This document shows positions 4,215 to 34,906 of a DNA stretch of 37,273 nucleotides, in pieces. The translations under genes and the position numbers were made by a program. Each line of letters starts with the position of its first letter. The stretch's first letter is position 1. Source of the stretch: a virus; the IMG/VR virus record IMGVR_UViG_3300025645_000190, positions 1 through 37,273 of that record. The stretch is one strand, 5' to 3'. The notes under the pieces were generated by a model. The model saw nothing but the letters and a program-made list of their open reading frames with translations. It was not told the DNA's origin and ran no database searches.

Positions 4215-4244
4215 ATAATAGCATGTTTATAAGAGGGGTGTCAA
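4215..4244 (-). promoter_or_regulatory. Possible sigma70 promoter inside a hairpin
   Basis: On the minus strand TTGACA (4244-4239) is followed after 18 bases by TATTAT (4220-4215), upstream of the 69-aa gene. The TTGACA is exactly the loop of the hairpin described at 4233-4250. Confidence 0.4.
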
Positions 4245-4250
4245 CCCCTC
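4233..4250. other. Hairpin GAGGGG/CCCCTC between two late genes
   Basis: Perfect 6-bp GC-rich stem with a 6-base loop, just after the stop of the gene at 4264-5202. The U-run after it on the minus strand is poor, so it is a weak terminator at best, or an mRNA processing/stability element. Confidence 0.45.
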
Positions 4251-4263
4251 CTTTTACTAAAAA

Positions 4264-17521: not shown

Positions 17522-17538
17522 ATATAGTTGTTAAATTT
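17522..17538 (-). promoter_or_regulatory. Late promoter element, copy 1
   Basis: Minus-strand AAATTTAACAACTATAT, identical in all five copies. It lies 15 bases from the ATG of the 171-aa gene and directly follows the capsid terminator, so it restarts transcription for the 17-kb tail block. Confidence 0.7.
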
Positions 17539-17637
17539 TAAGGTTATATATATATATATTTTTGATATTATAGTAATTTTAAGTACTTATTTTATTGGGA
17601 ATGGTGGATCTGGATTATACACTATTGCCTCCTAGAT

Positions 17638-17673
17638 AAAAAAAAACCCGGCATTGCACCGGGTTCTTTTTTT
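17638..17673. terminator. Intrinsic terminator after the capsid gene
   Basis: AACCCGG and CCGGGTT form a 7-bp GC-rich stem around a 7-base loop, flanked by nine A on the left and seven T on the right. It is a textbook terminator for the capsid transcript (minus strand), 18 bases beyond the stop, and could also act on plus-strand transcription. Confidence 0.9.
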
Positions 17674-17682
17674 GATTTGATT

Positions 17683-18939
17683 TTATGCTACTGTGATATT
17701 TTTAAGTACACAAAGAGAAGCTGGTCTAGCTGTAAATAAAGCTTGATCAGTATAACATCTCATTTCTATACCATGCTTGTTTTCAAGTAACTCTAGGTAT
17801 TCTTCACCGTCTGGTCTCTTGAAAGTAACTTCTTCAGATCCAATTCTCTTAAGATCTTTTTCACAAATTAAGTAAGAGAATCCTTCTTTTACAAAAGTTG
17901 ATGCGATTACTTTAATATTTCCGTTTTGTCCGTGGAATGTAATTTCTCTTGTACCAGCTTCTTGCTTAGCAGGAGAATAAGAGCTGTCATAGCTTCTTTT
18001 AGCGTCAATTTCAGTTAATAGTGAGTTCCATTGTTTAGGGTTAACATAACAAGAAACTTCTTCTTCCATTAGACCTTTTTCAACCATTGCAGCGATACCT
18101 TCTTCGATTTTAGCGAAAGATAAAACTACTGGAGTTGCGTCAGTACCAACTTCAACGATAGAACCTTGAAAAAGAGGCTCAGTTGCGTTACTAATACCAA
18201 AAAGGTTGCTAGTTTCAGTACTAATTCCGTGTACTCCTAAGAATTCATTCTTACCTGTATCTGTAGCTGCTCCTCTAAAGTAGATAACATCGTTTTCAGC
18301 GATTTCTGCAGCACCAAGTACTCCTGCCGCTTTTTTCAATGAAACACTTCTATCTTTTAGAGAGTATCCTTCTACTTCGTATGTAGCAACGATTGTCCCT
18401 GCTCTAAATACGTCTACTTCTGATCCAGTTGTACCGTTCCAGATTCCTGCTGCCCATTCTGATGCTTGGATTTTAACTGCTTCTGAAGCAGCTCCACCAA
18501 CAATGTCAGTAGAAACAATACCAATTCCAGATTGTCCGTAAAACATTTGAACTTCAAGTCTGTGGTAAACTGATTTAAGCATGTTTCCAACCATAAGGTC
18601 CATTGCTTTTTCGATTGCTTGTTTGTCAGAACCTGATCTAGATAAAGCACCGATAGAGATAGCAGATCTTAATACTAATTCTCTAGCTTTGATTGAAGCT
18701 TTTCTCATTTTAAATTCTTTAACATCATTAAGGTCAAAAAGAGATCCCTCTTCTCCACCGTATGTAAATCCTGATTCTAAAGATAGGATAACTGGTTCAT
18801 TGTAGCTATCTCCTACTTTCTTAGATGTGTCAAATTTTACTGCATTGTAAAGTTTAACATGATCAGGAACTAATTCCTTTACTGAATCTGCATATCTTTC
18901 TTTGAAAAGACCGTTCAGCGTTGATACTTCGTTTGCCAT
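17683..18939 (-). CDS. Major capsid protein
   Basis: 418 aa from the ATG at 18939, chosen because AAGGAG lies 7-8 bases upstream; an in-frame ATG at 18987 lacks a ribosome site. The sequence (STLNGLFKERYADSVKELVP, then QPVIL-like EPVILSLESGFTYGG, VLRSAISIGALSR, LKSVYHRLEVQMFYGQSGIG) fits a family of phage major capsid proteins of HK97-like fold by my recognition. It follows the scaffold gene, has its own late promoter, a roughly 200-base structured leader and a private terminator, as expected for the most abundant protein. Confidence 0.9.
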   Translation of the reverse strand: MANEVSTLNGLFKERYADSVKELVPDHVKLYNAVKFDTSKKVGDSYNEPVILSLESGFTYGGEEGSLFDLNDVKEFKMRKASIKARELVLRSAISIGALSRSGSDKQAIEKAMDLMVGNMLKSVYHRLEVQMFYGQSGIGIVSTDIVGGAASEAVKIQASEWAAGIWNGTTGSEVDVFRAGTIVATYEVEGYSLKDRSVSLKKAAGVLGAAEIAENDVIYFRGAATDTGKNEFLGVHGISTETSNLFGISNATEPLFQGSIVEVGTDATPVVLSFAKIEEGIAAMVEKGLMEEEVSCYVNPKQWNSLLTEIDAKRSYDSSYSPAKQEAGTREITFHGQNGNIKVIASTFVKEGFSYLICEKDLKRIGSEEVTFKRPDGEEYLELLENKHGIEMRCYTDQALFTARPASLCVLKNITVA

Positions 18940-19142
18940 TTTATAACTCCTTAAAATTACATAAATTGTGAGGATCTTATGATCCATGTGTTAAAATAAT
19001 ACGATTTTGTCACACTTTTCACTTGACAATCTTGGTCTTAATTGGTATTCTTTACTACAGAGCCTCAATCCTTTCGGGTATGAAGATGGTTCAAAAAGCC
19101 GACATAAGCCTACTATTGTAAGCTAGAGGGACTTCCTCATTA
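18940..19142 (-). promoter_or_regulatory. Long structured 5' leader of the capsid mRNA
   Basis: About 200 bases without a gene separate the late promoter from the capsid start. On the minus strand it can form GAGG-CCTC (19138-19126), AGCTTAC/GTAGGCT with an AATA loop (19124-19107, one G-U), TTGTCA/TGACAA (19029-19007) and GGATC/GATCC with a 4-base loop (18985-18972). Other capsid-region leaders in this phage are about 10-30 bases, so this length is deliberate-looking. It may protect the RNA or control translation. Confidence 0.55.
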
Positions 19143-19159
19143 ATATAGTTGTTAAATTT
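19143..19159 (-). promoter_or_regulatory. Late promoter element, copy 2 (capsid)
   Basis: Identical 17-bp element on the minus strand, upstream of the capsid leader, inside the gap after the scaffold gene. Confidence 0.7.
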
Positions 19160-19217
19160 AATAAACAACTTAATTATTTAATTTAAAAAAATACATTATT
19201 TCAAATAATACAAGTAC

Positions 19218-20192
19218 TTACATACCCATAAAATCTTTAATAGTTCTTCTTTTTAATTCTTTTTCTTCTTTCTTTTCAGGAACAGAGTTGTGCTTTATAT
19301 TACTAATGTTCTTTACTTGTTTACCTGCTTGTTCTATTCTCTCTTCTCTAAGTGAATTTAAAACATCATCTCCTAGTAAAGCCTTTAATGCAGATTTTGA
19401 TTTTAATGATCCTGCTATTGATCTAAACTTAGTTTGAAGTTCAGCTTTTACAGTAGGTATTACATCTTTTGCACTAACATCTTCCCATCCATTTTGCATA
19501 GCCCATAGCATATTATCTGCTACCATGGCAATTACTTCTGGATTTGCTGGAAGTTCTGTATCTCCTTCCAAAGCTGATAATATATCTGTCTCAAGTTCTT
19601 TTTCAACAGATGCCATTTCAGCTTCTCTAATTCTATCTTCATATTCTTTCTTTAATTGGTCTCTTTCTTCTTTCATTTTTTGATATTCAGAAGATCTTTT
19701 TTCTGATTCAATTTCTTCTGGAGACTTAGCATTTTGTGCTAAATGATTTTCAATAACTTTAGCGGCAAATTCAACAGGATCAATATCTAACTCTTGAAGT
19801 ACTGATGCTGTGTCATTTTTTAATCTATGAATATCATTTTTAAAAGCTTTTTCAAGTTCTGCACTACGTTGCATAGCCTGACGACCAGCTAATGCCATTT
19901 GGAATTCTTTTTGAAGACCTTCTTCATCATTAAGATCCACTTGTCTCTTATATTCTTTTCCATTAACCTTTAGAGTAAATTCTCTAACCATATTTAATAC
20001 TTCTTTTTCAGATGCACCTTCTTCTATGGCTTGTTCAATTTCTTCTTTAAGTTCTCCTTCAGTTTCTGCTTGAACGCCTTCTGAATCCGTAGACTCGCTT
20101 AGTTCTTGGGATTCTTCTGATTGATCTTCTTCAACAGATTCTACAGTAGTGTCTTCTTCAACAGTCTCAACTGCTTCAATTTCTTCGCTCAT
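19218..20192 (-). CDS. Capsid scaffolding protein
   Basis: 324 aa. Residues 1-60 are extremely acidic (E/D/S/T-rich). FTLKVNGKEYKRQVDLNDEE at about 73-92 and a long charged coiled coil at about 165-205 (rich in K, E, R) follow, with a basic C-terminus (KELKRRTIKDF). This acidic start, coiled-coil centre and basic tail are typical of scaffolds, whose basic end contacts the coat. It sits between portal and capsid, the classical position. No protease motif seen. Confidence 0.85.
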   Translation of the reverse strand: MSEEIEAVETVEEDTTVESVEEDQSEESQELSESTDSEGVQAETEGELKEEIEQAIEEGASEKEVLNMVREFTLKVNGKEYKRQVDLNDEEGLQKEFQMALAGRQAMQRSAELEKAFKNDIHRLKNDTASVLQELDIDPVEFAAKVIENHLAQNAKSPEEIESEKRSSEYQKMKEERDQLKKEYEDRIREAEMASVEKELETDILSALEGDTELPANPEVIAMVADNMLWAMQNGWEDVSAKDVIPTVKAELQTKFRSIAGSLKSKSALKALLGDDVLNSLREERIEQAGKQVKNISNIKHNSVPEKKEEKELKRRTIKDFMGM

Positions 20193-20249
20193 TTAATTCT
20201 CCTTTACTAATTTTTATATAGTAAAATACTCCGTCATTATGATAGGAGT

Positions 20250-20570
20250 TTATTTGTTTTCTTCTTTATGTTGATTATGTCCTTTATCACAAATACCAAA
20301 AGTTCTATCTCTTGATTCTCTAGATAAATCTATACCAAAAGATTCTAATTTTGATCTAGCTGTTCTTTTTAATACGTTTAAGTTTGTATATTTTTTGCTT
20401 TTAAAAGTAAATTCTTTATTTCTTTCGTTTCTTATTCCAAATTGCATATTTTCTAAGTCTAGAACTATTTTATATCTAGCTCCTGTTATTTTTGAAACAT
20501 ATGAATTTATAGATAATGAACAATTATCTTTAGTAGGATGTTTTTTATATCTGATTCTGTTCCCAGACAT
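20250..20570 (-). CDS. Hypothetical basic protein between portal and scaffold
   Basis: 106 aa, rich in K and R (RIRYKKHPTKDNC, KYTNLNVLKRTARSKLESFG, ESRDRTFGICDKGHNQHK). AGGAGG precedes it and its ATG overlaps the portal stop by one base (TAATG). Cys and His near the end (C15, C95, H98, H101) could bind metal, but this is not a clear motif. Perhaps a head-assembly accessory protein. Confidence 0.75.
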   Translation of the reverse strand: MSGNRIRYKKHPTKDNCSLSINSYVSKITGARYKIVLDLENMQFGIRNERNKEFTFKSKKYTNLNVLKRTARSKLESFGIDLSRESRDRTFGICDKGHNQHKEENK

Positions 20571-22672
20571 TAATTACCTCCTGAATTCTTTGCCATTAAA
20601 TCTGCTGGACTAGTAGGTTGAGGTGGTAATGTACCATCATTTACTCCTGCTGGTGTTGGAAGGTTTGGTTGGTTTTGTTGAGGATTATTTACACCCATAT
20701 TTTGAGATGGACCTCCATTTGGCATATTTACTCCTGCTGGTTGTTGAGGAGATGGTGCATTGCCCATAGGTCCTCCAGCTTGTTGAGGAGGTGGTGCTAA
20801 AGGTTGTTCTCCAATGATTGATAATATGTTTGGATCAGTTGTCTGTAACAAGTTTATATGTTCTTGAATATGATCTAAAACTGTTTGAACTAGTTCTGGA
20901 TCCTTTCTTAACATGTAATCAGATAATACAGATCTATGTTCTTTGATGTGAAGAGAATGATGATCAGAGAATATAGCAACAACTTCTTCTCCTCTGACTA
21001 TTGCTTCATTTTCACCTTTAATAGTCATCATTTCATCCATCTTACCTTCAGTAAAATAATCTAGATTACCAGTATTCATAACCATTAAATATTTTTCAGG
21101 ACTATCTATAAGTCCCATTTGTAATAAGTTTTCTGCTACTTGAGCACGACCAGCAGTAGTTTGCATTAAAGCGTTTCCTACGTCAACCACTACTCTATTA
21201 ATTGATTTAATATCATCTGATTTAAATTCTCTCATTTCTGTAGAGTTGTTTAGTCCAGATATAGCTGCAATTCTAGGAACGTTAGCAAAATCTTTTAATA
21301 AATTAAGAAGACCTGTACCTACGCTTTCTAAAAGCATAATATAAGATTGTTGAAGACCTGACACAAATTGTAAAGCTTGAGATTGTACTAATGCTAGTGC
21401 ATTTCCTGATCTTAAAGATTGTTCTGGATTACCACGAGCAACTGAATTTACACCCGAAAGTGTTTCCATAGTTTTTTCTATGATAGATATAAGTTGATAT
21501 ACTTCTGGAGATGTTTTTACTAAATCTAAAGGTTCTGGCTTTCCCATACCTTGTTCATATTCTATAAAGTTCATTCCTTCTGATACTTGTTCTACTGATA
21601 CTCCATTACCTCTTGGGTTTAGAATATTAATAACACCAAATGCATTAACATTTGTAGCTGCTGTAGAATAAAGACTATTTAACATGTCCTGTAAAGGGAG
21701 TAGGTCAAACATGTCTGAATATCCGTATGGAGTTCCCATTATCTCACTAGGAGTGATCCTGTGTACAGGTAAGTCTCTATAAGGCATTACTGTATCTTCC
21801 ATTATAGCTTCTGAATCAACATATAAAACATATCTACCTTCTGGCATTGATTCTGTTCTTTTATGAAAAAACTCATATACTGGAATGTCTTCAGTTTGTT
21901 CTATAGGACTAGATAACACTCTTCTAGCTCTTTTTTCTTGCTTATCTTTGGTAGCTTGTCCTAAGATTTCTTCTTCTAGTTCTGGATATTTTGATGCTAA
22001 ATCGAATTTGTTAATGAAAGTCCTACAAAGAACCCAATCATTCTTCATATAATCTTCTTTAGTTACATCAAATACAACATCAAATGGTGAAAGTAGTGAA
22101 AATTCAACATCACCTTCTCTAATAGGAAAAGGTTTTAATACTCTACCTTTCTCATTTACAGGTTCTCCATCTTCATTGTAGTCTGATATCTCATTTTCAT
22201 CAATATCAACATAATCATAAACTTTACCTTTGTTACTGTTCCATTCTAATTTAATGTATCCTGATCCCAGAACGATGGCGTACTCAACGGCTTTTTTTAT
22301 GACTATTTCTAACTTCATTTCACGCATATAATAATCTAGAAGTCCATTTCCTAAATCAGCTTGTAGTAATGATTTTCTATCTGTATTGATAGCTCTACAC
22401 TGAAAGCTCGGTCTTGTGCTTGTTACCATTACGTGTATATGTCTAGCTAGGTTTCTGTAGTGATTTACTGCTAAATTAACAAGTTCTCCTTGTTCTCCAC
22501 CAGTTGAAAGAAAATGTCCTTTGTCGTAATATTGACCATAATAAGCTTTCCAAGATCTTTTTATCTTATCGATATACTCAGTATCCATAACACCTTTAAA
22601 CCAGTGTTGAGATTTTCCTATTAAAGTATCTACACATTTTTCTGCGTTATCTGCAGCAAAGTATTTTTCCAT
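20570..22672 (-). CDS. Portal protein
   Basis: 700 aa, the length of large P22-type portals. Recognisable features are the N-terminal helical part (IKRSWKAYYGQYYD), NLAVNHYRNLARHIHVMVTS and TRPSFQCRA at about 66-93, and the ALVQSQALQFVSGLQQSY stem-like helix at about 424-443. The last 75 residues are a P/Q/N/G-rich, probably disordered tail. It forms the ring through which DNA enters and leaves the head. It is the first gene after a late promoter and stands between terminase and scaffold. Confidence 0.9.
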   Translation of the reverse strand: MEKYFAADNAEKCVDTLIGKSQHWFKGVMDTEYIDKIKRSWKAYYGQYYDKGHFLSTGGEQGELVNLAVNHYRNLARHIHVMVTSTRPSFQCRAINTDRKSLLQADLGNGLLDYYMREMKLEIVIKKAVEYAIVLGSGYIKLEWNSNKGKVYDYVDIDENEISDYNEDGEPVNEKGRVLKPFPIREGDVEFSLLSPFDVVFDVTKEDYMKNDWVLCRTFINKFDLASKYPELEEEILGQATKDKQEKRARRVLSSPIEQTEDIPVYEFFHKRTESMPEGRYVLYVDSEAIMEDTVMPYRDLPVHRITPSEIMGTPYGYSDMFDLLPLQDMLNSLYSTAATNVNAFGVINILNPRGNGVSVEQVSEGMNFIEYEQGMGKPEPLDLVKTSPEVYQLISIIEKTMETLSGVNSVARGNPEQSLRSGNALALVQSQALQFVSGLQQSYIMLLESVGTGLLNLLKDFANVPRIAAISGLNNSTEMREFKSDDIKSINRVVVDVGNALMQTTAGRAQVAENLLQMGLIDSPEKYLMVMNTGNLDYFTEGKMDEMMTIKGENEAIVRGEEVVAIFSDHHSLHIKEHRSVLSDYMLRKDPELVQTVLDHIQEHINLLQTTDPNILSIIGEQPLAPPPQQAGGPMGNAPSPQQPAGVNMPNGGPSQNMGVNNPQQNQPNLPTPAGVNDGTLPPQPTSPADLMAKNSGGN

Positions 22673-22708
22673 TATAATATTCCTTTTACTTTATTAACAT
22701 TTTATATA

Positions 22709-22725
22709 ATATAGTTGTTAAATTT
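22709..22725 (-). promoter_or_regulatory. Late promoter element, copy 3 (portal)
   Basis: Identical 17-bp element on the minus strand, 36 bases from the portal ATG. It sits in the 63-base gap after the terminase gene. Confidence 0.7.
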
Positions 22726-22735
22726 TATACACTTA

Positions 22736-24214
22736 TTATTTTTTTTTCTTAAGTTGTAACACTTTACTAATAAAATCAGCAGCTTGTGTTGTTTTTTTAT
22801 TTGAGAACTTAGGACTCATAAAGGTATTTTTGTTGATATTAAGACCAAATCCAAAAGGAAAAGGATTCTTAGACCTTTGTATATTTCTTATTAAATAATA
22901 CAATGCAGGTATACCATCAACATGTCCTCCTTTTATTAACTTATCAGGAGTATCTGGTAATCTTTTAAAATCAGTTCTTTTGTCATTCCACTGACCATAT
23001 TCTAAATGATATATCAAATGGGAACATCTTTCGTGAATCTTTACTTTTCCAGTTCCTACCCACATTCTCATTTCATTAATCTGACCTTCTTTATTATCTT
23101 TTTTTGTAGATATAAAGCTTATACCATGTAAGTGATTCAAATCTTGCTGCATACCTAGATTTATATCCATAACTCTTAGATAAGCTTTGTGCTGTTCTTT
23201 TGTTCTTGGATCATAAAATCTTATTTTTTCTTTAACTGTAATTTCATCAGCTAACTTTTTAGTTGTCATTGTAGGACCGTTCATTACTAACTCATCCATT
23301 ATTACTAAACAACTTTCTTTAAAATCATAGTAAGTAAATATAGCTAAAGTTAAATCTTTATGTCCAATATCCATTCCAACATAAAAATCTCTATGTTCTG
23401 GAAGTTCTGGAGCAGTTTCATCATTAAATACTACAACGTCTTTATTTGATGAGAATTCTGGACATATTGTTGTTTCTTCATCTACAAATACTTCACACAT
23501 ATATTCTCTTCTAAAGTCAGGATCATCTTTTCCTCTAGGATATTCCTGAATGATCTCTTTAATTATTTCTGGTGTAAAGTTAGGGTTTTGATAAATATCA
23601 TATATTTTACATCTACCAGATGCTCTGTATGGATTCATAAACTTTTGTACAAATTCATGTTGAGGATCTCTTGATGGGGTAGATGCTAATATCATCCTAC
23701 CTCTTGTTGTTCGTATTGTAGGAGATAAGATAGATGTGATAGTATACGATAAATCGTTAACAAATCCTGCTTCATCGATCAGAACAAGCTCAGCCCTAGT
23801 ACCTCTTAAAGATTCTGCTGAAAGATCAGACCCCCCTAAGTGTATCTCTGATCCATTATAAAATTTAAATATTTTATCTTGAGTACTATAGTCAGGAACT
23901 AGTCTCTGTGGACATGTCTCTGTTATTTCACGCATAAGAGGTTGTATAATAGTCTTTGCATCTTTTTGTTTAGGAAGTAAGAATTTCACTATAGAGTTTG
24001 GGGCTTTAAGACATTGTTCGAGTGCTAATGTAACAAGCATGAAAGTCTTACCGAGTCGTCTACTACAAACTACTACACTTGTCCTAGTACTGTCATTCAT
24101 GATATTCTTTTTCATGTCTTTTTGTACATCAGTTAAAAGCCAAGTCAATTCTCCCATTTCCCATAGCTTTTCGATAGCTTCTTCTTTAGATAATTTAGTC
24201 TTCTTTCTAACCAC
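22736..24214 (-). CDS. terL: Terminase large subunit
   Basis: 492 aa. The ATPase part has a Walker A-like CSRRLGKT at 50-57, Walker B LVLIDEA at 143-149 and the coupling motif ASTP at 177-180. The nuclease part shows the RNase H-like acidic residues in GMDIG (D282), RVMD (D350) and GGHVDG (D433). It packages DNA into the head and cuts it. Translation starts at a GTG that overlaps the stop of the preceding gene (TAGTG) with AAGGAG upstream. All key residues are present. Confidence 0.95.
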   Translation of the reverse strand: MVRKKTKLSKEEAIEKLWEMGELTWLLTDVQKDMKKNIMNDSTRTSVVVCSRRLGKTFMLVTLALEQCLKAPNSIVKFLLPKQKDAKTIIQPLMREITETCPQRLVPDYSTQDKIFKFYNGSEIHLGGSDLSAESLRGTRAELVLIDEAGFVNDLSYTITSILSPTIRTTRGRMILASTPSRDPQHEFVQKFMNPYRASGRCKIYDIYQNPNFTPEIIKEIIQEYPRGKDDPDFRREYMCEVFVDEETTICPEFSSNKDVVVFNDETAPELPEHRDFYVGMDIGHKDLTLAIFTYYDFKESCLVIMDELVMNGPTMTTKKLADEITVKEKIRFYDPRTKEQHKAYLRVMDINLGMQQDLNHLHGISFISTKKDNKEGQINEMRMWVGTGKVKIHERCSHLIYHLEYGQWNDKRTDFKRLPDTPDKLIKGGHVDGIPALYYLIRNIQRSKNPFPFGFGLNINKNTFMSPKFSNKKTTQAADFISKVLQLKKKK

Positions 24215-24567
24215 TACTTATCTCCTTGAACTATTTTTAACAATTCAGCCTTAGTAGTCTTCTTTTTTGTTGGTTTAGAAATATCTGCATGACCTCTTAT
24301 CATACGAAGGTTTTTATGTAGTATGTCATAATTAACTATATCATTTTTATCAGATACTTTTGATCTGACAGCTTCTAGTATCTGCTCTATCCCAAGTATA
24401 CATATCTCTTCTTCTGGCGATATTCTTCTTTTTTCACCAATCTCTTCACCAAGACCATTTTCATGAATAATATCCCTAAGATCTTTATTATCTTCTTTAA
24501 GTTTATCAACTTGTTTTTTTAGGGCCTTTAGTTCTAGTTCAGCTTCTAGCTTTAATAAATCATCCAT
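24214..24567 (-). CDS. Probable terminase small subunit
   Basis: 117 aa directly in front of and coupled to the large terminase. The N-terminal coiled coil (residues 5-38) is followed by an ISPEEEICILGIEQILEA helix and LHKNLRMIRGH, a pattern I associate with small terminases of several phages. It would recognise the packaging site and load the large subunit. Identification rests mainly on position, size and helical layout. Confidence 0.6.
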   Translation of the reverse strand: MDDLLKLEAELELKALKKQVDKLKEDNKDLRDIIHENGLGEEIGEKRRISPEEEICILGIEQILEAVRSKVSDKNDIVNYDILHKNLRMIRGHADISKPTKKKTTKAELLKIVQGDK

Positions 24568-24890
24568 TAGAAATAGAACTTGTTTTCTTCACGTTTTTTA
24601 TTAATATCATTAATAGTCAATTTACCATAACCTTCGTTAATTTTGACTAGTTCTTTTTGAATTCTAATAATTTCGTCATTGAATACTTTTGAGTAATTAG
24701 GTTGTTCTTTGTGCATTAGATAGTATCTATATCCACATAAACCAGAAACTGACAATACTATAATAGATTGTGCAATATTAGGCGAATTGTAATAGAAAAA
24801 TGGGACCAGTGCTAATAATAGCACGAATGGAATTGCTTCAGTTAGTTTATTCAAGAATGTCTCCTTTATAAAGAGAATTAAACAATCCAT
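24567..24890 (-). CDS. Two-helix membrane protein
   Basis: 107 aa. Two hydrophobic helices at about 19-35 (FVLLLALVPFF) and 39-57 (AQSIIVLSVSGLC), followed by a charged, soluble C-terminal tail of about 45 residues (KVFNDEIIRIQKELVKINEG). No ribosome site is obvious. It overlaps the small terminase start by one base (TAATG). Holin- or spanin-like function is possible, since this position next to terminase is used for lysis genes in some phages. Confidence 0.65.
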   Translation of the reverse strand: MDCLILFIKETFLNKLTEAIPFVLLLALVPFFYYNSPNIAQSIIVLSVSGLCGYRYYLMHKEQPNYSKVFNDEIIRIQKELVKINEGYGKLTINDINKKREENKFYF

Positions 24891-24903
24891 TATGGGTATG
24901 TTA

Positions 24904-25047
24904 TTATCTCTTGTTGTTTGGTTTTGCTTTTCTTTTTAGTGCTTCTCTAATTCTAGAGAACCTCTCCTTTTTTTGAGTTTTTGTTTGTGATCCATCTTGG
25001 ATCTTTTTTAGTATTGGGTTTATAGCGTTTACGTCTAATGCCGACAT
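24904..25047 (-). CDS. 47-aa basic microprotein
   Basis: Starts at an ATG that overlaps the stop of the 280-aa gene by one base (TAATG), so translation is coupled. It reads MSALDVNAINPILKKIQDGS and then a highly basic tail (KKERFSRIREALKRKAKP). No family recognised. The basic C-terminus might contact nucleic acid. It fills an otherwise unexplained gap. Confidence 0.6.
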   Translation of the reverse strand: MSALDVNAINPILKKIQDGSQTKTQKKERFSRIREALKRKAKPNNKR

Positions 25048-25889
25048 TATCTTAACTTCATTCCGCTAAGTATTTTTCTTTTTAATAAATTTCTTTCTGC
25101 TTCTTTTTCTCTATCTTCTAAAGATGTATCAGCTTCTGCCATATCCATAATAGCTTCTTTATCATCCAACATTGCTAACATATCAGCATCTCCTGCTTGA
25201 TTAGCTAAAGTTTCTTTTACTCTGTCATCTCTATTATTTCTCAGTCCTTCGTAGTATTTCTTGTCTGCTGCTAACTTATCCATCTTAGCTGGAGAATTTG
25301 CATAATCTTTTCTAGCTTGCATTTCACCCATCATGACATTTTCATCTTCAGAAGATTGTCCAGTTGGAGATGCTTCTGCTAACTGTGAAAATAATGCTAA
25401 GGGTCCACCTAATGCTAACCCTGCTGCTTTACCAGCTCCCATTTTTCCTACTTTAGATCCTAGTTTACCAAGTAGACTCTTTAAACCTTGTTTCTTGTTT
25501 ATAGGAGTTTTTTTAGATAATGCTTGATTATCCATAGCATTTTTCATACTACCTAAATCAAATTCTTTTACCTTATTACCAACATCACTAATTAACTCTG
25601 GAGATCTTTTTAAATCACTACCTCTACTGATAGCTTTATCCATGAGTTCTTTACCTCTCATGCTTTTATCCATTGCTACTTTCTTTTGAAAATCATCACC
25701 TGATATAGATTTACCAAGAGTCTTCTCAAGGTCTTTAATTCTATCAGCTTCAACATTCTTTGAAATATCATCAACATCTATATTATTCATAGAATCCATG
25801 ATAGCTGTTGCATCTGGATCTAATTGTCTAAGCTTAGGTTCTGTTGAACCCATTCTTTTTAATAGTTTACTAAAATCATTATCATCCAT
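25047..25889 (-). CDS. Hypothetical protein, first gene of the head operon
   Basis: 280 aa, GGAGGG ribosome site. Mostly helical and charged, with one glycine/alanine-rich hydrophobic stretch at about 148-172 (GKMGAGKAAGLALGGPLALF). Highly charged ends and a possible membrane-active segment recall internal virion or DNA-ejection proteins of short-tailed phages, but there is no sequence proof. It lies directly behind a late promoter. Confidence 0.75.
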   Translation of the reverse strand: MDDNDFSKLLKRMGSTEPKLRQLDPDATAIMDSMNNIDVDDISKNVEADRIKDLEKTLGKSISGDDFQKKVAMDKSMRGKELMDKAISRGSDLKRSPELISDVGNKVKEFDLGSMKNAMDNQALSKKTPINKKQGLKSLLGKLGSKVGKMGAGKAAGLALGGPLALFSQLAEASPTGQSSEDENVMMGEMQARKDYANSPAKMDKLAADKKYYEGLRNNRDDRVKETLANQAGDADMLAMLDDKEAIMDMAEADTSLEDREKEAERNLLKRKILSGMKLR

Positions 25890-25919
25890 TATCCCTCCAG
25901 ATATATAAAGATGTACAAT

Positions 25920-25936
25920 ATATAGTTGTTAAATTT
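25920..25936 (-). promoter_or_regulatory. Late promoter element, copy 4
   Basis: Identical 17-bp element on the minus strand, 30 bases from the ATG of the 280-aa gene; it would start the terminase-side late operon. Confidence 0.7.
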
Positions 25937-26059
25937 ATGCGTTTTGTTTACAGAATAATCTTGTATTTGAATAATTTTAAGTAGTTGCGTTTTTGAATAG
26001 CTTTCCACTACCCTTATATACATAAAGATAATTGAAAAACCATTAATCTTATCTTAAGT

Positions 26060-26210
26060 TACCGATTAAAGGCGATAGGTTATTAACCCCAATATATCCT
26101 TGTAGTGTAGGCCTTCCGCTGGACTCTTCTGAGTGTCGAGTATCCAGTAAGCGACTTTCCTCACGCTTCCCTTCGGTCTTAACCTATTTCACGGTCCTAG
26201 ACTACAATTA
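26060..26210 (-). ncRNA. Structured noncoding RNA with own sigma70 promoter
   Basis: The region has no gene on either strand but is clearly structured. The start predicted from the promoter is near 26210. CCTAGACTACAA (26196-26207) and TTGTAGTGTAGG (26100-26111) form a 12-bp stem with one mismatch that closes the RNA. Inside lies CTGGA/TCCAG (26119-26147) with a nested ACTC/GAGT hairpin. TAACCTAT (26180-26187), inside the stem, is complementary to ATAGGTTA (26075-26082), outside it, giving a pseudoknot. The 3' end is not marked by a clean terminator. Alternatives: a long leader of the late operon. Confidence 0.6.
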
Positions 26211-26216
26211 GTATTA

Positions 26217-26244
26217 ATTATACAGAAATATAATAATATGTCAA
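26217..26244 (-). promoter_or_regulatory. Consensus sigma70 promoter of the structured RNA
   Basis: On the minus strand a perfect TTGACA (26244-26239) and a perfect TATAAT (26222-26217) are 16 bases apart. It is the only perfect sigma70 promoter seen on the minus strand and points into the structured region. Confidence 0.75.
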
Positions 26245-26258
26245 ATTAAATTAATTGT

Positions 26259-26287
26259 TTGACAAGAAGAAATAATACTGTTAATAT
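26259..26287 (+). promoter_or_regulatory. Rightward early promoter
   Basis: TTGACA, 17 bases, TAATAT, upstream of the first rightward gene. It is back-to-back with the RNA promoter at 26217-26244. The expected start falls at or next to the ATG at 26293, so the transcript may be leaderless. Confidence 0.65.
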
Positions 26288-26292
26288 TTATT

Positions 26293-26496
26293 ATGGGCAA
26301 AAGAGACGGTAAGAAAATTATAGAAACTATGGGCTACGTTATAGTAGCTCAGGTTCCTATGATTATGACATTTGAAGAAGATAAAGCTGCTTTCATAATA
26401 GAACATCTTGGTAACTCTATTGAAAGAGCTTATGATGTTATAGATATGTTTGGAGATAGAGGTGGAGATTTTGATCCCTTTGGAGATGAGGGGTGA
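26293..26496 (+). CDS. First rightward gene, hypothetical
   Basis: 67 aa. Basic start (MGKRDGKK), a hydrophobic centre (GYVIVAQVPMIMTF), and an acidic, glycine-rich tail (FGDRGGDFDPFGDEG). No ribosome site lies before the ATG, which is about 6 bases after the -10 box; leaderless translation or a later start (M13) are the alternatives. No family recognised. Confidence 0.55.
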   Translation: MGKRDGKKIIETMGYVIVAQVPMIMTFEEDKAAFIIEHLGNSIERAYDVIDMFGDRGGDFDPFGDEG

Positions 26497-26530
26497 TAAA
26501 CTTTATCTTATATTACAATTTAACATTCTT

Positions 26531-26559
26531 TCAAATGTATGCTAATGTGGGAGTATAAT
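26531..26559 (+). promoter_or_regulatory. Possible weak promoter
   Basis: A perfect TATAAT at 26554-26559 with only a poor -35 (TCAAAT at 17 bases). The GTG start of the next gene is 6 bases downstream. Confidence 0.35.
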
Positions 26560-26564
26560 TAAGG

Positions 26565-27011
26565 GTGACGGATATCAAAAACTCCCAGATTTTTAATGTT
26601 GATAACATACGCAAAGTGACAGATGTCCGTAACCTTAACTCTGTAGACCTAACAATCACTTTAATATGGTATCCCGGCTATTCTATATTTAGAGAACAAT
26701 ACTCGACAGGAAATTATGAATTGATAGGAAATATACTAAGAGATTTAGCAATTTCTTATGAAACTATGTCATTATGGCTACTTAGAGGTACATATGAGAG
26801 GTATCTATCCTCAATATTAGATGAAGACTACGCAGATATGATGTTAGATAATACTATTTACGATAAACACTTTACTATATTACGAGGATGTAAGTTATCA
26901 TATAAACTATTTTATAAAGACATTTTATATGTGTATAAAGACGGTAGAGTGTTAGTTTCTAATAGTTTAGAAGCAAAAAAAGCATTTAGAGACATAAGGG
27001 GTATAAAATGA
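26565..27011 (+). CDS. Hypothetical protein, GTG start
   Basis: 148 aa. An in-frame stop at 26556 excludes a longer form, so the start is the GTG at 26565 or later. No ribosome site precedes it, and it is 6 bases after TATAAT. The beginning has two similar units, TDIKNS and TDVRNL. The body is helical and aromatic (RDLAISYETMSLWLLRGTYE, DKHFTILRGCKLSYKLFYKD). No family recognised. It overlaps the next gene by ATGA. Confidence 0.65.
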   Translation: MTDIKNSQIFNVDNIRKVTDVRNLNSVDLTITLIWYPGYSIFREQYSTGNYELIGNILRDLAISYETMSLWLLRGTYERYLSSILDEDYADMMLDNTIYDKHFTILRGCKLSYKLFYKDILYVYKDGRVLVSNSLEAKKAFRDIRGIK

Positions 27012-27298
27012 AAGCAATAAAGGAGCTAATGTTAATATGCGATATAGAATCTGACGAAAACAAAGTAGGTTGGAGAAAACGTAGAGATGCTATGCAAGAT
27101 TGGGTAGACAAGTATATTCAAACAGTTAATACTCAACAAAGTGTATTAAATCCTAAGGTTTTTGACTCTGATTTTATGGATTTTATAAAAGAATCTTTAG
27201 CAAAAAACTTAGCAGAAGAGTTGACAACTACAACTAAATATGAGATAACTGATAATAACATAAAGGCTAAGTTAGTGGTATTAAATGGAAATAAATAA
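27008..27298 (+). CDS. Hypothetical helical protein, 96 aa
   Basis: Overlaps the previous stop (ATGA). Charged and helical (ENKVGWRKRRDAMQDWVDKY, DFMDFIKESLAKNLAEELTT). No family recognised; it belongs to a coupled run of five small genes. Confidence 0.65.
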   Translation: MKAIKELMLICDIESDENKVGWRKRRDAMQDWVDKYIQTVNTQQSVLNPKVFDSDFMDFIKESLAKNLAEELTTTTKYEITDNNIKAKLVVLNGNK

Positions 27299-27572
27299 TA
27301 ATAGATATTCAGTAAGAAGAGCAGAAGACTCAGAAGGTCTAGTAGTATCTATTCCAAAAGGTGAAATTATGATAGATTTTTTAGATTTTGAAGAAACAAA
27401 AAGAGGAGTGGTGTATAAAGACGCTTCTGGGTATGGAGTACCAATAACTGCTATTATAATTAACTCAGAAGAAGGGTCTTTTTCAATACAAGCTGTCAAA
27501 AAAACAAAATTAGCGAATAAATTGTTGAAAATATTAGCAGAAACTGATAATTATTACTTGGTGAGAGTATGA
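27285..27572 (+). CDS. Hypothetical protein, 95 aa
   Basis: Overlaps the previous gene by 14 bases and the next by 4. Beta-rich start (RYSVRRAEDSEGLVVSIPKG), acidic middle, and a helical end (KLANKLLKILAETDNYYLVR). No recognised motif. Confidence 0.6.
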   Translation: MEINNNRYSVRRAEDSEGLVVSIPKGEIMIDFLDFEETKRGVVYKDASGYGVPITAIIINSEEGSFSIQAVKKTKLANKLLKILAETDNYYLVRV

Positions 27573-27838
27573 GTGAATACTTTACTTCATATTCAACAAT
27601 AGAAAATGGAGTGACAATTAACGTTTTAGAGATACATCCGGTATATAACGATTATATAAGTTTTATTTTGTATGATGATGTTTTTAACTATATACAGAGA
27701 GCAGCAGATTATGAAGCATCTCATTTTTTTAATTGGATGAAACTTGATGAGGTGTATATACATCCTGAATGTAAGAATAGGCTGGAACATATACAATTAG
27801 CAAGAGTTAAAGGTGTCAAATTAATAATAAAAATATAA
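27569..27838 (+). CDS. Hypothetical protein, 89 aa
   Basis: ATGA overlap with the gene before. Aromatic-rich (VYNDYISFILYDDVFNYIQR, ASHFFNWMKLDEVYIHPEC). No family recognised; last gene of the coupled run that begins at 26565. Confidence 0.6.
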   Translation: MSEYFTSYSTIENGVTINVLEIHPVYNDYISFILYDDVFNYIQRAADYEASHFFNWMKLDEVYIHPECKNRLEHIQLARVKGVKLIIKI

Positions 27839-27845
27839 GGAAATT

Positions 27846-27920
27846 ATGAAAATCATGTTACAACTTATTAGAATTGCTATATATACCTTTATTATTTACA
27901 AATTGGTACAATCATGTTAG
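27846..27920 (+). CDS. 24-aa hydrophobic microprotein (tentative)
   Basis: AAGGAAA lies just before the ATG. The peptide is one hydrophobic helix (MLQLIRIAIYTFIIYKLVQSC). Its start region is a near-duplicate of the next gene's start, and the two overlap. It may be a real single-span peptide or a leftover from that duplication. Confidence 0.35.
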   Translation: MKIMLQLIRIAIYTFIIYKLVQSC

Positions 27921-28084
27921 AACTTATTAAAGTAATAATACTTGCATGTCAAGTTACAAGTGCAAGAGAACATGTTAACTATGATATAGTGTATAAAAGG
28001 CAAATTCAATGTCAAAAAAGACTGTTAGGATGTACGAAAGGCTCAAGCTTTAAGTTATTTGAGTGCTTAAAGGAGAGAAAATGA
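27914..28084 (+). CDS. Small cysteine-containing, possibly exported protein
   Basis: 56 aa. The short hydrophobic start (LELIKVIILACQVTSA) could be a signal peptide, with ILAC as a marginal lipobox. The rest is basic with cysteines at 12, 33, 40 and 51. It overlaps the ATG at 28081 as ATGA. Function unknown. Confidence 0.5.
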   Translation: MLELIKVIILACQVTSAREHVNYDIVYKRQIQCQKRLLGCTKGSSFKLFECLKERK

Positions 28085-28317
28085 AAAAATATAGAATTAT
28101 AGAAGAAGCATCTAATGGTTATGTAAGGTTTTACATAGAAGAACGATATAAAAAATTTTTTATATTCACGAAATACAAAAGAGTAGGGTGGTCATGTGAC
28201 ACTGAACAAGGTGTAAGGTCGGAATTAGAGAGATTATTAGCATATGATGTTCTTGAAAAAAGAAAAGAAGAAGAAAGGAAATCTCATCCTAAATATAAAA
28301 AAGTAATAAAGATATAA
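28081..28317 (+). CDS. Hypothetical basic protein, 78 aa
   Basis: I chose the ATG at 28081 over an in-frame GTG at 28063, because AAAGGAGAG lies at the right distance and the ATG overlaps the upstream stop. The sequence is aromatic and basic (FYIEERYKKFFIFTKYKRVG) with a lysine/arginine-rich helix at the end. Unknown function. Confidence 0.65.
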   Translation: MKKYRIIEEASNGYVRFYIEERYKKFFIFTKYKRVGWSCDTEQGVRSELERLLAYDVLEKRKEEERKSHPKYKKVIKI

Positions 28318-28329
28318 AAAGGATGTAAA

Positions 28330-28506
28330 ATGATTTGTAAATATTGTAAGAAAAGTCACGGAAAGGAGTTAAAATGGCTCTATAAAGGTGGAGTTACTTA
28401 TGTAAATGATCCAGTGTTACAGACCTGTATAGTCCTTAGAAGGATGAATAGCACTACTGCAGGAGATTATTTGCGCAACATATTTAAAAAGATCATGAAG
28501 GGGTAA
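28330..28506 (+). CDS. 58-aa protein with CxxC
   Basis: Begins MICKYCKKSHGKELKWLYKG, with C3, C6 and H10 plus C33 as possible zinc ligands. It continues with a helical end (STTAGDYLRNIFKKIMKG). Too short for the usual gene finders, but it fills the gap between two genes with matching frame and spacing. Confidence 0.5.
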   Translation: MICKYCKKSHGKELKWLYKGGVTYVNDPVLQTCIVLRRMNSTTAGDYLRNIFKKIMKG

Positions 28507-28508
28507 TA

Positions 28509-28658
28509 ATGATAACTGTCCGAAATAGCATTATAGCAGTATCTATTCTTTCTATAGGGTGTATTATCCTATCAGAGCTAGGAGAAAATTTTTATTTTGT
28601 TATTTTACAAATATTATTATATACTATAATTGCACATTTAATTATAAAGGAAAATTAA
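28509..28658 (+). CDS. 49-aa membrane protein
   Basis: Two hydrophobic segments at about 7-22 (SIIAVSILSIGCIIL) and 28-46 (FYFVILQILLYTIIAHLII), ending KEN. It starts 3 bases after one stop and ends 1 base before the next ATG, as expected in a compact operon. Unknown function; possible holin or superinfection protein. Confidence 0.5.
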   Translation: MITVRNSIIAVSILSIGCIILSELGENFYFVILQILLYTIIAHLIIKEN

Positions 28659-28659
28659 G

Positions 28660-28908
28660 ATGTTTGATCCAATAATTTTAGGTAAAGGTGGCAGTATGTT
28701 TTTAGTTATAAGAGGTAATTATCATGAATTTTATGATACAAAAAAAGAAGCTGTAAAAGCTATAGAGGATTATTCTACTCATAGTATGAGCAGCTTTGTA
28801 TATAGATTGTTTGAAATAAGTAAAGAACACGAGTTCAACATTATAGATGTTGAAGAAAAACGAGAGGTTACAGAGACTGTAAGTAAAGTAGAGTTTACTG
28901 ATGTTTGA
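28660..28908 (+). CDS. Hypothetical protein, 82 aa
   Basis: AAGGAAAA ribosome site. Residues 14-33 (FLVIRGNYHEFYDTKKEAVK) resemble small phage proteins that fold as a beta strand plus helix, but no name can be given. An internal M14 start is possible. Overlaps the next gene by 8 bases. Confidence 0.6.
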   Translation: MFDPIILGKGGSMFLVIRGNYHEFYDTKKEAVKAIEDYSTHSMSSFVYRLFEISKEHEFNIIDVEEKREVTETVSKVEFTDV

Positions 28909-29119
28909 TATAATGATTAAGATATTACCAAATAACCGCTTAATAGTCCGAGATACTCGATTTGACACGTCCGTGAACATCAGAGCTAACCAACTATCAG
29001 AGTATATAGAAAGTATCTTAGACGTTCAATTTGACGCTCAGAAGGAATGGGACGACAAAGTAGAAGATCTTAGTAAAAATGATGTAAATAGATTTAATAT
29101 TAATTCCGGGGAGGATTAG
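28901..29119 (+). CDS. Hypothetical acidic protein, 72 aa
   Basis: N-terminal strand region (IKILPNNRLIVRDTRFDTSV) and an acidic helix (LSEYIESILDVQFDAQKEWD). GC-richer codon use than the adjacent genes in parts (GACACGTCC). No family recognised. Confidence 0.6.
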   Translation: MFDIMIKILPNNRLIVRDTRFDTSVNIRANQLSEYIESILDVQFDAQKEWDDKVEDLSKNDVNRFNINSGED

Positions 29120-29120
29120 A

Positions 29121-29492
29121 ATGAGTACTTATATAGATCCTGATTATATTCAGAAGATGTTAAAGCGTGTATTTGAGGACTTTGGCTTTGAAGTGACTCA
29201 TTGCGACAGAATGTGTATGAACGATTCTATAGAAATAATGACAGGCTTTGAAGTTCCTATGTTTAAAATGAGAATGGGGCAAGATGAAATGCATAAAGAG
29301 CTTCAGGATTTCTACGATAAATTCAAGAACAGTAGATATTCCAAGGATTTAGAGGCTACATATAAGAAAGAAGCTGATATGTTAAGGGAAGAGTTGGAAG
29401 AGCTTAAGGAACAAAATAACAAGCTGTTAGAGGCTTTGAGTGATGGTATGGAAGTATTAGATATCGAGGTTAAACCAAAAGGGGAAGAATGA
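29121..29492 (+). CDS. Coiled-coil protein, 123 aa
   Basis: Residues 1-50 are globular with C28 and C32 (HCDRMCMND). Residues 65-112 are a strong coiled coil (EADMLREELEELKEQNNKLL). Probably oligomeric. It overlaps the next ATG by 4 bases. Function unknown. Confidence 0.65.
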   Translation: MSTYIDPDYIQKMLKRVFEDFGFEVTHCDRMCMNDSIEIMTGFEVPMFKMRMGQDEMHKELQDFYDKFKNSRYSKDLEATYKKEADMLREELEELKEQNNKLLEALSDGMEVLDIEVKPKGEE

Positions 29493-29764
29493 AAATATAT
29501 GGAATTATAATTTTATTAGTATTAAATGTAGTGGGATGGTATAATTACTATAAAGAAGCAAACGATAAACATTCGGTAAGTGTAAATGATTTTTATTATA
29601 TTGCAGACAAAGACAAGTGTGTAAGAACGTGTGGAGTAATATTTTTTGATTATAGTGCAGTAAGATACACTGAAGGAAAACCATTTAACACTGTATCATG
29701 TGAATGTAAGAGAACATCTGGAGCAGCAACATATTTTAAACACTTAGAGCTTATAGAAGAATAA
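29489..29764 (+). CDS. Membrane-anchored cysteine protein, 91 aa
   Basis: One N-terminal membrane helix at about 4-18 (YGIIILLVLNVVGWY) followed by a soluble domain with four cysteines (C48, C52, C74, C76) that could form disulfides outside the cytoplasm. This suits an envelope protein, for example for superinfection exclusion; that role is a guess. It is the last gene before the iteron region. Confidence 0.65.
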   Translation: MKIYGIIILLVLNVVGWYNYYKEANDKHSVSVNDFYYIADKDKCVRTCGVIFFDYSAVRYTEGKPFNTVSCECKRTSGAATYFKHLELIEE

Positions 29765-29874
29765 TGTGTATTAAACCAAAATAGGTCCAGTGTGTGTTCT
29801 CAGCATAGAATGACCAATATCACTCGCTTAGAACCACATACCCCCCCTATGCCTAAATGAAATATGTTTATAAA

Positions 29875-29904
29875 GAATATACGCACCTATGAATATACGC
29901 ACCT
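29875..29904 (+). repeat. Iteron copies 1 and 2 (GAATATACGCACCTA)
   Basis: Two tandem copies, GAATATACGCACCTAT then GAATATACGCACCTAC, spaced by 16 bases (start to start). Confidence 0.8.
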
Positions 29905-29964
29905 ACTAAATAGATATTGTTTGTCAACTTAATTAATCTTAAGTATGTATCTATTACATGGTAA

Positions 29965-30001
29965 GGAATATACGCATCTATGTTGCCAACTATCTGTGGC
30001 T
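29965..30001 (+). repeat. Iteron copy 3 with dyad
   Basis: GGAATATACGCATCT (29965-29979) is followed at 29984-30001 by TGCCA-N8-TGGCT. Confidence 0.75.
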
Positions 30002-30023
30002 ATCATGTGACCCAACAGCATCA

Positions 30024-30055
30024 GGAATATACGCACCTGCCAACTATATGTGGCT
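30024..30055 (+). repeat. Iteron copy 4 with dyad
   Basis: GGAATATACGCACCT (30024-30038) runs straight into TGCCA-N8-TGGCT (30038-30055). Confidence 0.75.
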
Positions 30056-30256
30056 TACACAATGGTGGCTAGAATACATTTAAAATTATTATATGATACT
30101 AGGCAAGGGTAAAATCTAAATGGATTACAGACTAGGCTGAGAGTCTTAGAACATTGTCAAGAAAAAAATACAGAAATATACAGAAAAGAAAAAGCTTGAC
30201 TAAACAAATTCTATTGGTGTCAACTAAAGTTTCCTTAAGAAAATAATATTACATGA

Positions 30257-30272
30257 CTTAACAAATGTTAAG
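30257..30272. promoter_or_regulatory. Palindrome overlapping a promoter, possible operator
   Basis: CTTAACA-AA-TGTTAAG is a perfect dyad whose right arm overlaps the -35 region of the promoter at 30271. A longer pair, ACATGAC (30251-30257) and GTCATGT (30285-30291), brackets the same promoter. Confidence 0.45.
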
Positions 30273-30299
30273 GACACAATCAATGTCATGTGCTATAAT
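30271..30299 (+). promoter_or_regulatory. Promoter with extended -10
   Basis: AGGACA, 17 bases, TGC-TATAAT, about 38 bases before the ATG at 30337. Confidence 0.6.
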
Positions 30300-30336
30300 A
30301 AATATAGAGATTAACGCAACGCAATAAAGGGATAAC

Positions 30337-30552
30337 ATGAAAAACATTATTATGATTCAAAGTCCAATTAAATTCGAAAAGGGTTCAGCTTTTGAGGTTA
30401 AAGCCTCTTTAGTGATTAAAGTAAATGATACTTATAAGACTATTTACGGACTGGGCGATACTAAAGGAGACGCAAGTCTATGGTTGATGGATAATTTAAC
30501 GGAGCTTCACAAGTCTTTACAAACTGAAAACTTTTACACTGGAGTATGGTAA
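30337..30552 (+). CDS. Hypothetical protein, 71 aa
   Basis: AAAGGGATAAC precedes the ATG. A beta-alpha pattern (FEVKASLVIKVNDTYKTIYG, then DASLWLMDNLTELHKSL) and the end TENFYTGVW; the NFYTG word also occurs in the gene at 32630. No family recognised. Confidence 0.65.
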   Translation: MKNIIMIQSPIKFEKGSAFEVKASLVIKVNDTYKTIYGLGDTKGDASLWLMDNLTELHKSLQTENFYTGVW

Positions 30553-30553
30553 C

Positions 30554-30724
30554 ATGAAACACTTAGTAACTACTATCACAAGAAATAGCCCTAAACAACT
30601 TTTATTGGCTTTAAAGTATGACTTATATACTAAAACAAGTCCTCTTTATACTATAGAGTTTAAGACTTCTAAGAACGTTAGAAACAATATGCCTATTTAT
30701 ACGGCTGTAATAAGGTTAAAATGA
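30554..30724 (+). CDS. 56-aa basic protein
   Basis: Starts one base after the previous stop (TAACATG) and runs to TGA at 30724. Lysine- and threonine-rich (MKHLVTTITRNSPKQLLLAL onward). Its size and position fit the operon, but no family is recognised. Confidence 0.5.
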   Translation: MKHLVTTITRNSPKQLLLALKYDLYTKTSPLYTIEFKTSKNVRNNMPIYTAVIRLK

Positions 30725-30743
30725 AACAAGATAAAGGATCAAA

Positions 30744-31019
30744 ATGAAACAATTAGTAGTAAACAATCAAGGACTTAAGACAGAGAAAAGAAAACTTAAG
30801 CAAAGTGAAGAAAGTATCAAGTGGAAGGCAAATTTGCCCTACTTAGACCAAAACAGAGAGGAAAAAAGCTTTGTTGGTTACGGAGTTACTGAAAAGGAGG
30901 CAATTAGTTCAGCATATGGAAATGCTTTATATGAGCAAAGAAGATTATATAATTTTTATGTTACGTCGTCACAAATTGATAACCATACGTTGAAATTTGA
31001 TAATTCTAGTATCAGTTAA
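30744..31019 (+). CDS. Hypothetical protein, 91 aa
   Basis: AAAGGATC ribosome site. Begins with lysine-rich KRKLKQSEESIKWKA, continues with a GYGVTEKEAISSAYGNALYE helix, which resembles double-stranded-RNA-binding-like beta-alpha units found in small phage proteins; that is only a suggestion. It is the last gene before the bidirectional terminator. Confidence 0.6.
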   Translation: MKQLVVNNQGLKTEKRKLKQSEESIKWKANLPYLDQNREEKSFVGYGVTEKEAISSAYGNALYEQRRLYNFYVTSSQIDNHTLKFDNSSIS

Positions 31020-31077
31020 AAACAAGTTAATACATTATTTAAAGTCTCACTTCCGAGCGTTCTAAATTGTCCCATAC

Positions 31078-31110
31078 AAAAATGCCTCATATCTGAGGCG
31101 TTCTTTTTTA
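31078..31110. terminator. Bidirectional intrinsic terminator
   Basis: GCCTCA-TATC-TGAGGC stem with T-runs on both sides (TTCTTTTTT on plus; ATTTTTGT on minus). It ends the rightward operon from 30337 and, on the minus strand, the RNA from the late element at 31370. Confidence 0.88.
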
Positions 31111-31368
31111 TACACAAATTGGTTAGGATTTTGGCATAACTCTCTTTTACTAGTATAAGGTCACTAGCCGAAAGTCATGCTAAATAGATTATGTTTACTT
31201 TTTCTATTTGGCTTTTGCTGTTAAGCAATTTATCCAAGATCTTAAAGCGTTCCGCTCAAGTCTTTTGAAGGTCGTTTCTTGAGTACACAGCTTTTAAACT
31301 TCATGTGCCTAGTCGAAAAATCATGTTGCCAATCAGAATCATTTTTTAACGGTCTCTAAAATCTCTTA
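31085..31368 (-). ncRNA. Late-promoter-driven structured noncoding RNA
   Basis: No coding gene follows the leftward late element at 31370, yet about 280 bases later there is a terminator on the same strand. In between, the minus strand can form GCACA/TGTGT, CTCAAG/CTTGAG (31281-31253), AGCG/CGCT, GCTT/AAGC and CTTT-CGG-CTAGT/ACTAG-T-AAAG (about 31173-31144). Promoter, dense hairpins and terminator together define an RNA gene. Known families such as phi29 pRNA or tRNA are not recognised. Confidence 0.6.
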
Positions 31369-31369
31369 A

Positions 31370-31386
31370 ATATAGTTGTTAAATTT
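31370..31386 (-). promoter_or_regulatory. Late promoter element, copy 5 (noncoding RNA)
   Basis: Identical 17-bp element on the minus strand, embedded in the rightward gene half, with no protein gene downstream. Confidence 0.65.
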
Positions 31387-31881: not shown

Positions 31882-31910
31882 TTGACACGCTGTGTTATAA
31901 CTGATATAAT
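31882..31910 (+). promoter_or_regulatory. Consensus early promoter
   Basis: Perfect TTGACA, 17 bases ending in TGA, perfect TATAAT. It is followed by the leader ATATGTAGGAAC that recurs at other early promoters. Confidence 0.85.
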
Positions 31911-32571: not shown

Positions 32572-32600
32572 TTGACACAATTAACGCAGTATGTTATAAT
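32572..32600 (+). promoter_or_regulatory. Consensus early promoter
   Basis: Perfect TTGACA, 17 bases ending in TGT, perfect TATAAT, followed by the repeated leader TAATTAAGAACTAAACAAGG. Confidence 0.85.
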
Positions 32601-34162: not shown

Positions 34163-34191
34163 TTGACACAATACATTAAAAATGTTATAAT
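34163..34191 (+). promoter_or_regulatory. Consensus early promoter
   Basis: Perfect TTGACA, 17 bases ending in TGT, perfect TATAAT, then ATATGTAGGAACTAAACGAG. Confidence 0.85.
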
Positions 34192-34877: not shown

Positions 34878-34906
34878 TTGACACGATTAACGCAGTATGT
34901 TATAAT
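34878..34906 (+). promoter_or_regulatory. Consensus early promoter
   Basis: Perfect TTGACA, 17 bases ending in TGT, perfect TATAAT, then ATTATAGGAGG. It shares the spacer ATTAACGCAGTATGT with the promoter at 32572. Confidence 0.85.

Follow-up and report, generated by a model that had tools for sequence, protein, structure and literature searches.

The window analysed here takes in the whole of an IMG/VR record (37,273 bases; a linear fragment of an incomplete genome) and carries five identical copies of a 17-bp element that, judged from its sequence and setting, is very probably a phage-specific late promoter; the phages that use it probably redirect the host RNA polymerase (RNAP) with small phage proteins of unknown type. 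An exact search of the whole window located the five copies at the positions given in an earlier note on this DNA, every one of them on the minus strand; the plus strand has no copy. When up to three mismatches were allowed, six matches were obtained (five of the six exact) versus 1.47 expected, and the maximum in 100 shuffles was five. The open reading frame (ORF) list divides the window into a leftward late arm, at approximately 1–25.9 kb, and, from 26.3 kb onward, small genes that form a rightward arm. As the earlier note had also stated, four of the copies precede late operons; the distances to the next leftward start codon are 15, about 203, 36 and 30 nt.

Copy 1 (17522..17538, minus strand) precedes the gene at 17506-16991 by 15 nt and, with it, the long tail operon that extends down to position 1, and its slot is kept ahead of the homologous gene in G001 (2404-), L012, L040, L048, G005 and L066. 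Copy 2 (19143..19159, minus strand) stands ahead of the capsid leader and the major capsid protein gene (17683..18987, minus strand), about 203 nt from the ATG at 18939, and this slot is kept in G001 (4004-), L012, L040, G005 and L066. The capsid gene was assigned by homology within the family and by position, and its product is 67–89% identical to those of close relatives; the ATG at 18939 is conserved, and a longer ORF opens at 18987. Copy 3 (22709..22725, minus strand) is located 36 nt ahead of the portal protein gene (20570..22672, minus strand; phrog_156, E 3e-25), which is followed by 20250-20570 and the scaffold genes, and copy 4 (25920..25936, minus strand) is located 30 nt ahead of the gene at 25889, the first of the genes at 25889-22736, which include that for the terminase large subunit (22736..24214, minus strand; phrog_2, E 5e-33); the slots of both copies are kept in relatives. 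Upstream of copy 4, a perfect TTGACA-16-TATAAT sequence at 26217-26244 (minus strand) is directed leftward toward the late arm, part of which may also have a host-type promoter at this site. Copy 5 (31370..31386, minus strand) is positioned inside the rightward early arm, and no leftward gene is found downstream of it in the ORF list, as was implied by the count of four in the earlier note; it heads a noncoding RNA that is described below.

A profile of the capsid protein identified 135 relatives in IMG/VR, of which 79 loci were kept, and the window's phage is a member of a large, uncultured family represented in IMG/VR only. Eight further records and then twelve more of 76–96 kb were examined, and terminal repeats were found in G001, G007, G011, G013, G015 and G020. 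The nearest isolate is a Silvanigrella-associated phage (24–30% identity), which is without the motif. For host identification, the capsid and portal profiles were searched against genome contigs, and zero relatives matched.

In IMG/VR viral contigs, 81 stretches contain the exact 17-mer, many of them from relatives with two to seven co-oriented copies, and the multi-copy stretches encode relatives of the capsid, portal, scaffold and terminase proteins (35–92% identity). In these relatives, the element is again on the late strand and occupies the matching intergenic slots before the operons for terminase, portal, capsid and tail. The search for further copies and their orientation that the earlier note had called for gave, in 14 genomes, 82 occurrences of TTAACAACTAT on the late strand and one on the early strand, and a reversed (not complemented) control of the same sequence occurred three times. 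A logo of 186 non-identical sites revealed the conserved core TTTAACAACTATA, which forms a 13–14 bp block in the window's clade. With the start-site register assumed, the base after CTATA is T at 61%, G at 19% and A at 16% of these sites, and it is followed by a C-poor, purine-rich stretch in which no sequence is fixed relative to the element; upstream, the logo contains no -35 box at a fixed distance and shows weak enrichment of A-tracts only. The spacing between the element and the start codon ranges from 4 to over 200 nt and is often 4–40 nt.

The shortest of these spacings, 4–5 nt in G007 and G021, would suit an operator or an element of the mRNA 5′-end, such as a processing site or a translation signal, since the element could then sit in a leader. 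This explanation is very improbable: the element is also found at the head of a noncoding RNA and of a 200-nt leader, the variable start-codon spacing and the lack of anything fixed downstream do not fit it, and a separate upstream promoter at fixed spacing was not seen. We read the element as a promoter of the late strand because its position, its orientation, its conservation in divergent relatives, the lack of a -35 box and the short leaders all agree, and they bear out the late-promoter reading of the earlier note. A literature search on TTAACAACTATA returned papers on microalgae only and no phage work, and no paper naming the motif was found.

The sequence of the element drifts from clade to clade, and its place and orientation are kept. 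At least five versions of the motif exist, including ...CTATAGTA in G011, in whose clade G follows CTATA, TTGACAACTATA in G015, TTAACAAATATA in G020, TTAACAACTAAATA in G013, TTAGCAACTATATA in G027, AACACCCTTATA in G014 and G028, and TATCGCTATTATATAG in G012. A de novo motif search of upstream regions identified a late-strand motif in most of 12 genomes, including the changed motifs in G012, G014, G027 and G028, and the opposite strand had at most one site; no clear motif emerged from this search in G037 (which is without a capsid gene), G038 or G040. The drift bears on whether the host RNAP with an alternative sigma factor of the host might suffice, with no phage factor. That neither a phage sigma factor nor a phage polymerase was found (PF00940, sigma70 regions, family genomes) is in keeping with such a scheme, which is nevertheless improbable, as the motif changes strongly among related phages (from AACAACTA to AACACCCTTA), a change that a conserved host sigma factor would not readily permit.

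The earlier note had inferred that the phage encodes its own polymerase and had proposed a search for a single-subunit enzyme or a phage sigma factor. The PF00940 model found no single-subunit RNAP in 30 family genomes, six of them with terminal repeats, though it detected the positive controls T7 RNAP (E 1e-109), N4 RNAPII (1e-14) and, weakly, the N4 virion RNAP; a phmmer search with T7 RNAP likewise gave no match in the family. In the early arm, the only ORF families of 230 aa or more that all 16 near-complete genomes share are a PDDEXK/RecB-type nuclease (assigned from its own sequence), a primase-helicase and an exonuclease; every universal early-arm protein of suitable size has an assignment, and none could be a T7-like polymerase. 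A polymerase of the T7/N4 type as the reader of the elements is thus very doubtful, even though the element is, like T7-type promoters, compact, contiguous and placed before late genes on one strand, resembles the CACTATAG core of SP6, T7 and K11, has G after CTATA in the G011 clade, and drifts by clade as is seen in T7-like polymerase/promoter pairs. T7-type promoters have a +1 G, and a purine directly follows their TATA core; most sites of the present element have T, not G, after CTATA. The likeness to SP6, T7 and K11 to which the earlier note drew attention is therefore real as regards the core; the shared polymerase is not upheld, and the likeness appears to be convergence. A multisubunit RNAP of the phiKZ/AR9 type was also considered and rejected: the DxDGD signature occurs in a single genome, in a virion ORF of the late arm, and no universal large early protein lacks an assignment.

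Several other features of the gene content were observed. Six genomes encode a MoxR-type ATPase and a VWA/metallopeptidase that form a pair like N4 gp24/gp25, without the N4 RNA polymerases (G001, 25637-26818 and 27729-28976; homologues in G007, G012, G013, G014 and G020). Large families alternate in the early arm: a family A DNA polymerase is present in five genomes (G001, G008, G011, G013 and G020), and an alternative family of up to 838 aa is present in ten (G005, G007, G012, G014, G017-G019 and G021-G023). In G001 (L087-L089), a peptide module, [DN]TRLA[RK]KM(Y/F)P...DGxLxI, is contained in 14 early proteins (e.g., L089:3553-5955, plus strand), mostly at the C-terminus and once inside DNA polymerase A; a search with this pattern did not find it in the other genomes, and the module resembles a dispersed repeat or tag carried in frame.

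Sigma70 region 2 (PF04542) was likewise not found in 16 genomes in a search whose control was detected in 11/14 cases, and sigma70 region 4 gave only two sub-threshold matches (G008 and G011; 2/16 genomes); the phage sigma factor named in the earlier note as an alternative was thus not encountered. A phage sigma factor beyond the reach of the Pfam models, comparable to T4 gp55 or phiEco32 gp36, might nonetheless bind the host RNAP core and treat the element as an extended -10; such a factor could be the YDRNNARNR protein or the HNH/zinc protein described below rather than the winged-helix protein. The -10-like TATA without a -35, as at T4 late promoters, the failure to find a polymerase gene, and late-only use, which requires some factor, speak for such a protein. 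The region 2 and region 4 results speak against it, as does a structural model of the YDRNNARNR protein for which no informative resemblance to solved structures was obtained, and we regard this explanation as rather unlikely.

Consensus promoters of the host type are found at the early genes. A perfect sigma70 promoter of the form TTGACA-17-TGnTATAAT (31882..31910, plus strand) serves rightward early genes, and further perfect TG-extended sites are located at 32572-32600, 34163-34191 and 34878-34906 (plus strand); together with near-perfect TG-extended sites at 33159, 35773 and 36977 (plus strand), these amount to four perfect and three near-perfect sites on the plus strand in 11 kb of the window. 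Given the perfect sigma70 promoters at early genes, the host RNAP evidently starts the programme; in other genomes, strong sigma70 sites are less markedly concentrated on the early strand.

Three small nonstructural genes are universal in the family and encode an HNH/zinc protein, a winged-helix protein and a protein named here after its YDRNNARNR motif. The winged-helix and YDRNNARNR genes are adjacent in the loci examined, with a divergent winged-helix ORF in G020; both lie outside the window, and this phage is assumed to carry them because its relatives do. The winged-helix candidate is a small basic protein of about 110–240 aa of the RFX/D5 type, and a Pox_D5 Pfam match was obtained for 5/22 members. 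Its AlphaFold model (pLDDT 90.6) has the order H-E-H-H-E-E, and the nearest folds, with middling scores, are RFX5 (Z 7.6), AsfvPrimPol (Z 6.5), RFX1-DNA (Z 6.2) and the phage P4 origin-binding domain (Z 5.8). The YDRNNARNR model is helical and gave no informative match in the PDB or in viral fold libraries, and tblastn found neither protein encoded in an isolated phage of the collection. Among single-domain winged helices, the recognition helix carries FFR/FFK (FLR in G013) in genomes with AACAA(C/A)TA motifs, FFQ in G014 (AACACCCTTA) and FFT in G012 (TATCGCTATTA); a joint change of recognition helix and motif is suggestive, with two departing genomes that were noticed post hoc. Winged helices of the D5/P4 type mostly serve replication initiation, and for this reason the present one may act in replication, which is the main caveat to a role in transcription. 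That the winged-helix/YDRNNARNR pair is the late factor is a conjecture to which we give a little less than even weight.

Downstream of copy 5 lies a putative late transcript, a conserved, covarying and structured noncoding RNA of ~285 nt (31084..31369, minus strand) that ends in a terminator-like hairpin (stem 31099-31084). Homologues were identified with nhmmer in G001, G008, G011, L051 and L054, and the RNA was placed at L087:16471-16788 (minus strand), L106 about 4225-4560 (plus strand) and L197 about 16024-16359 (minus strand). The window RNA folds better than shuffled sequences (z -2.5), and among six sequences 33 cells changed on both sides; shuffles gave 10.5 such cells, and slid partners gave no more than 8. 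The major capsid gene has a 5′ leader RNA of about 200 nt (18940..19142, minus strand) with blocks conserved in G001, L012, L040, G005, L066 and L028. Rfam contained no credible family for either RNA. From its place behind copy 5, the noncoding RNA appears to be under the late promoter.

These observations can be combined in a model in which the host RNAP would read the early genes from consensus sigma70 promoters and, after the early phase, a phage-encoded factor would turn it to the late elements. The winged-helix protein would read the element, and the YDRNNARNR protein may join it to RNAP. Transcription would start about 3–12 nt downstream of the block, because start codons are often found at a distance of only 4–40 nt and because the bases after CTATA are poor in C and rich in purines. 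Through copy 5, the same switch would also make the structured noncoding RNA late in infection. It is likely that the host RNAP acts with a phage factor outside the detectable families. The best explanation as a whole, in which the element is the late promoter, a phage factor turns the host RNAP to it, and the winged-helix/YDRNNARNR pair is the best candidate for this factor, is one on which we are evenly divided; the fuller proposal, that a non-sigma winged-helix protein and its small partner retarget the host RNAP, co-diverge with the promoter across the family and also switch on the structured noncoding RNA, is put forward tentatively.

Sequence analysis alone has thus defined the late promoter of a widespread, never-cultured phage family; of the recognised solutions, three were tested (a T7-like polymerase, a Pfam-detectable sigma70-family factor and a phiKZ-like polymerase), and none was found with it. 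The two small universal proteins could represent a new kind of RNAP appropriator, the noncoding RNA under the late promoter would be a new one for phages, and the clade-specific motifs would constitute promoter/factor pairs open to laboratory comparison.

Among known systems, T4 late promoters (TATAAATA) are read by gp55, gp33 and the host RNAP (PMC7892883). Their activation involves the sliding clamp, acting via gp33. The present element shares with them a short -10-like block without a -35, use at late genes only, the proposed reliance on the host RNAP and early promoters of the sigma70 type; it differs in its 13–14 bp block with a TTTAACA half upstream of the TATA, in that no sigma region 2 was found, and in that the candidate factor is a winged helix. 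The promoters of T7, SP6 and K11 are similar in being compact late elements with an ...ACTATA... core that drifts between relatives; they differ in that no single-subunit RNAP gene was found in the family and that the base after CTATA is mostly T. The non-virion RNAP of AR9, a phiKZ-like phage, uses late promoters of the form AACA-(6N)-TA/G (PMC5312081), which the window element, containing AACA-ACTATA-TA, fits literally; however, TA/G is not kept in other clades (G011), and DxDGD is confined to the single virion ORF mentioned above. Finally, the predicted fold of the small protein resembles the winged helices of RFX, Pox D5 and phage P4 alpha, although it is a stand-alone small protein with no primase/helicase fusion and with a putative function as a transcription factor.
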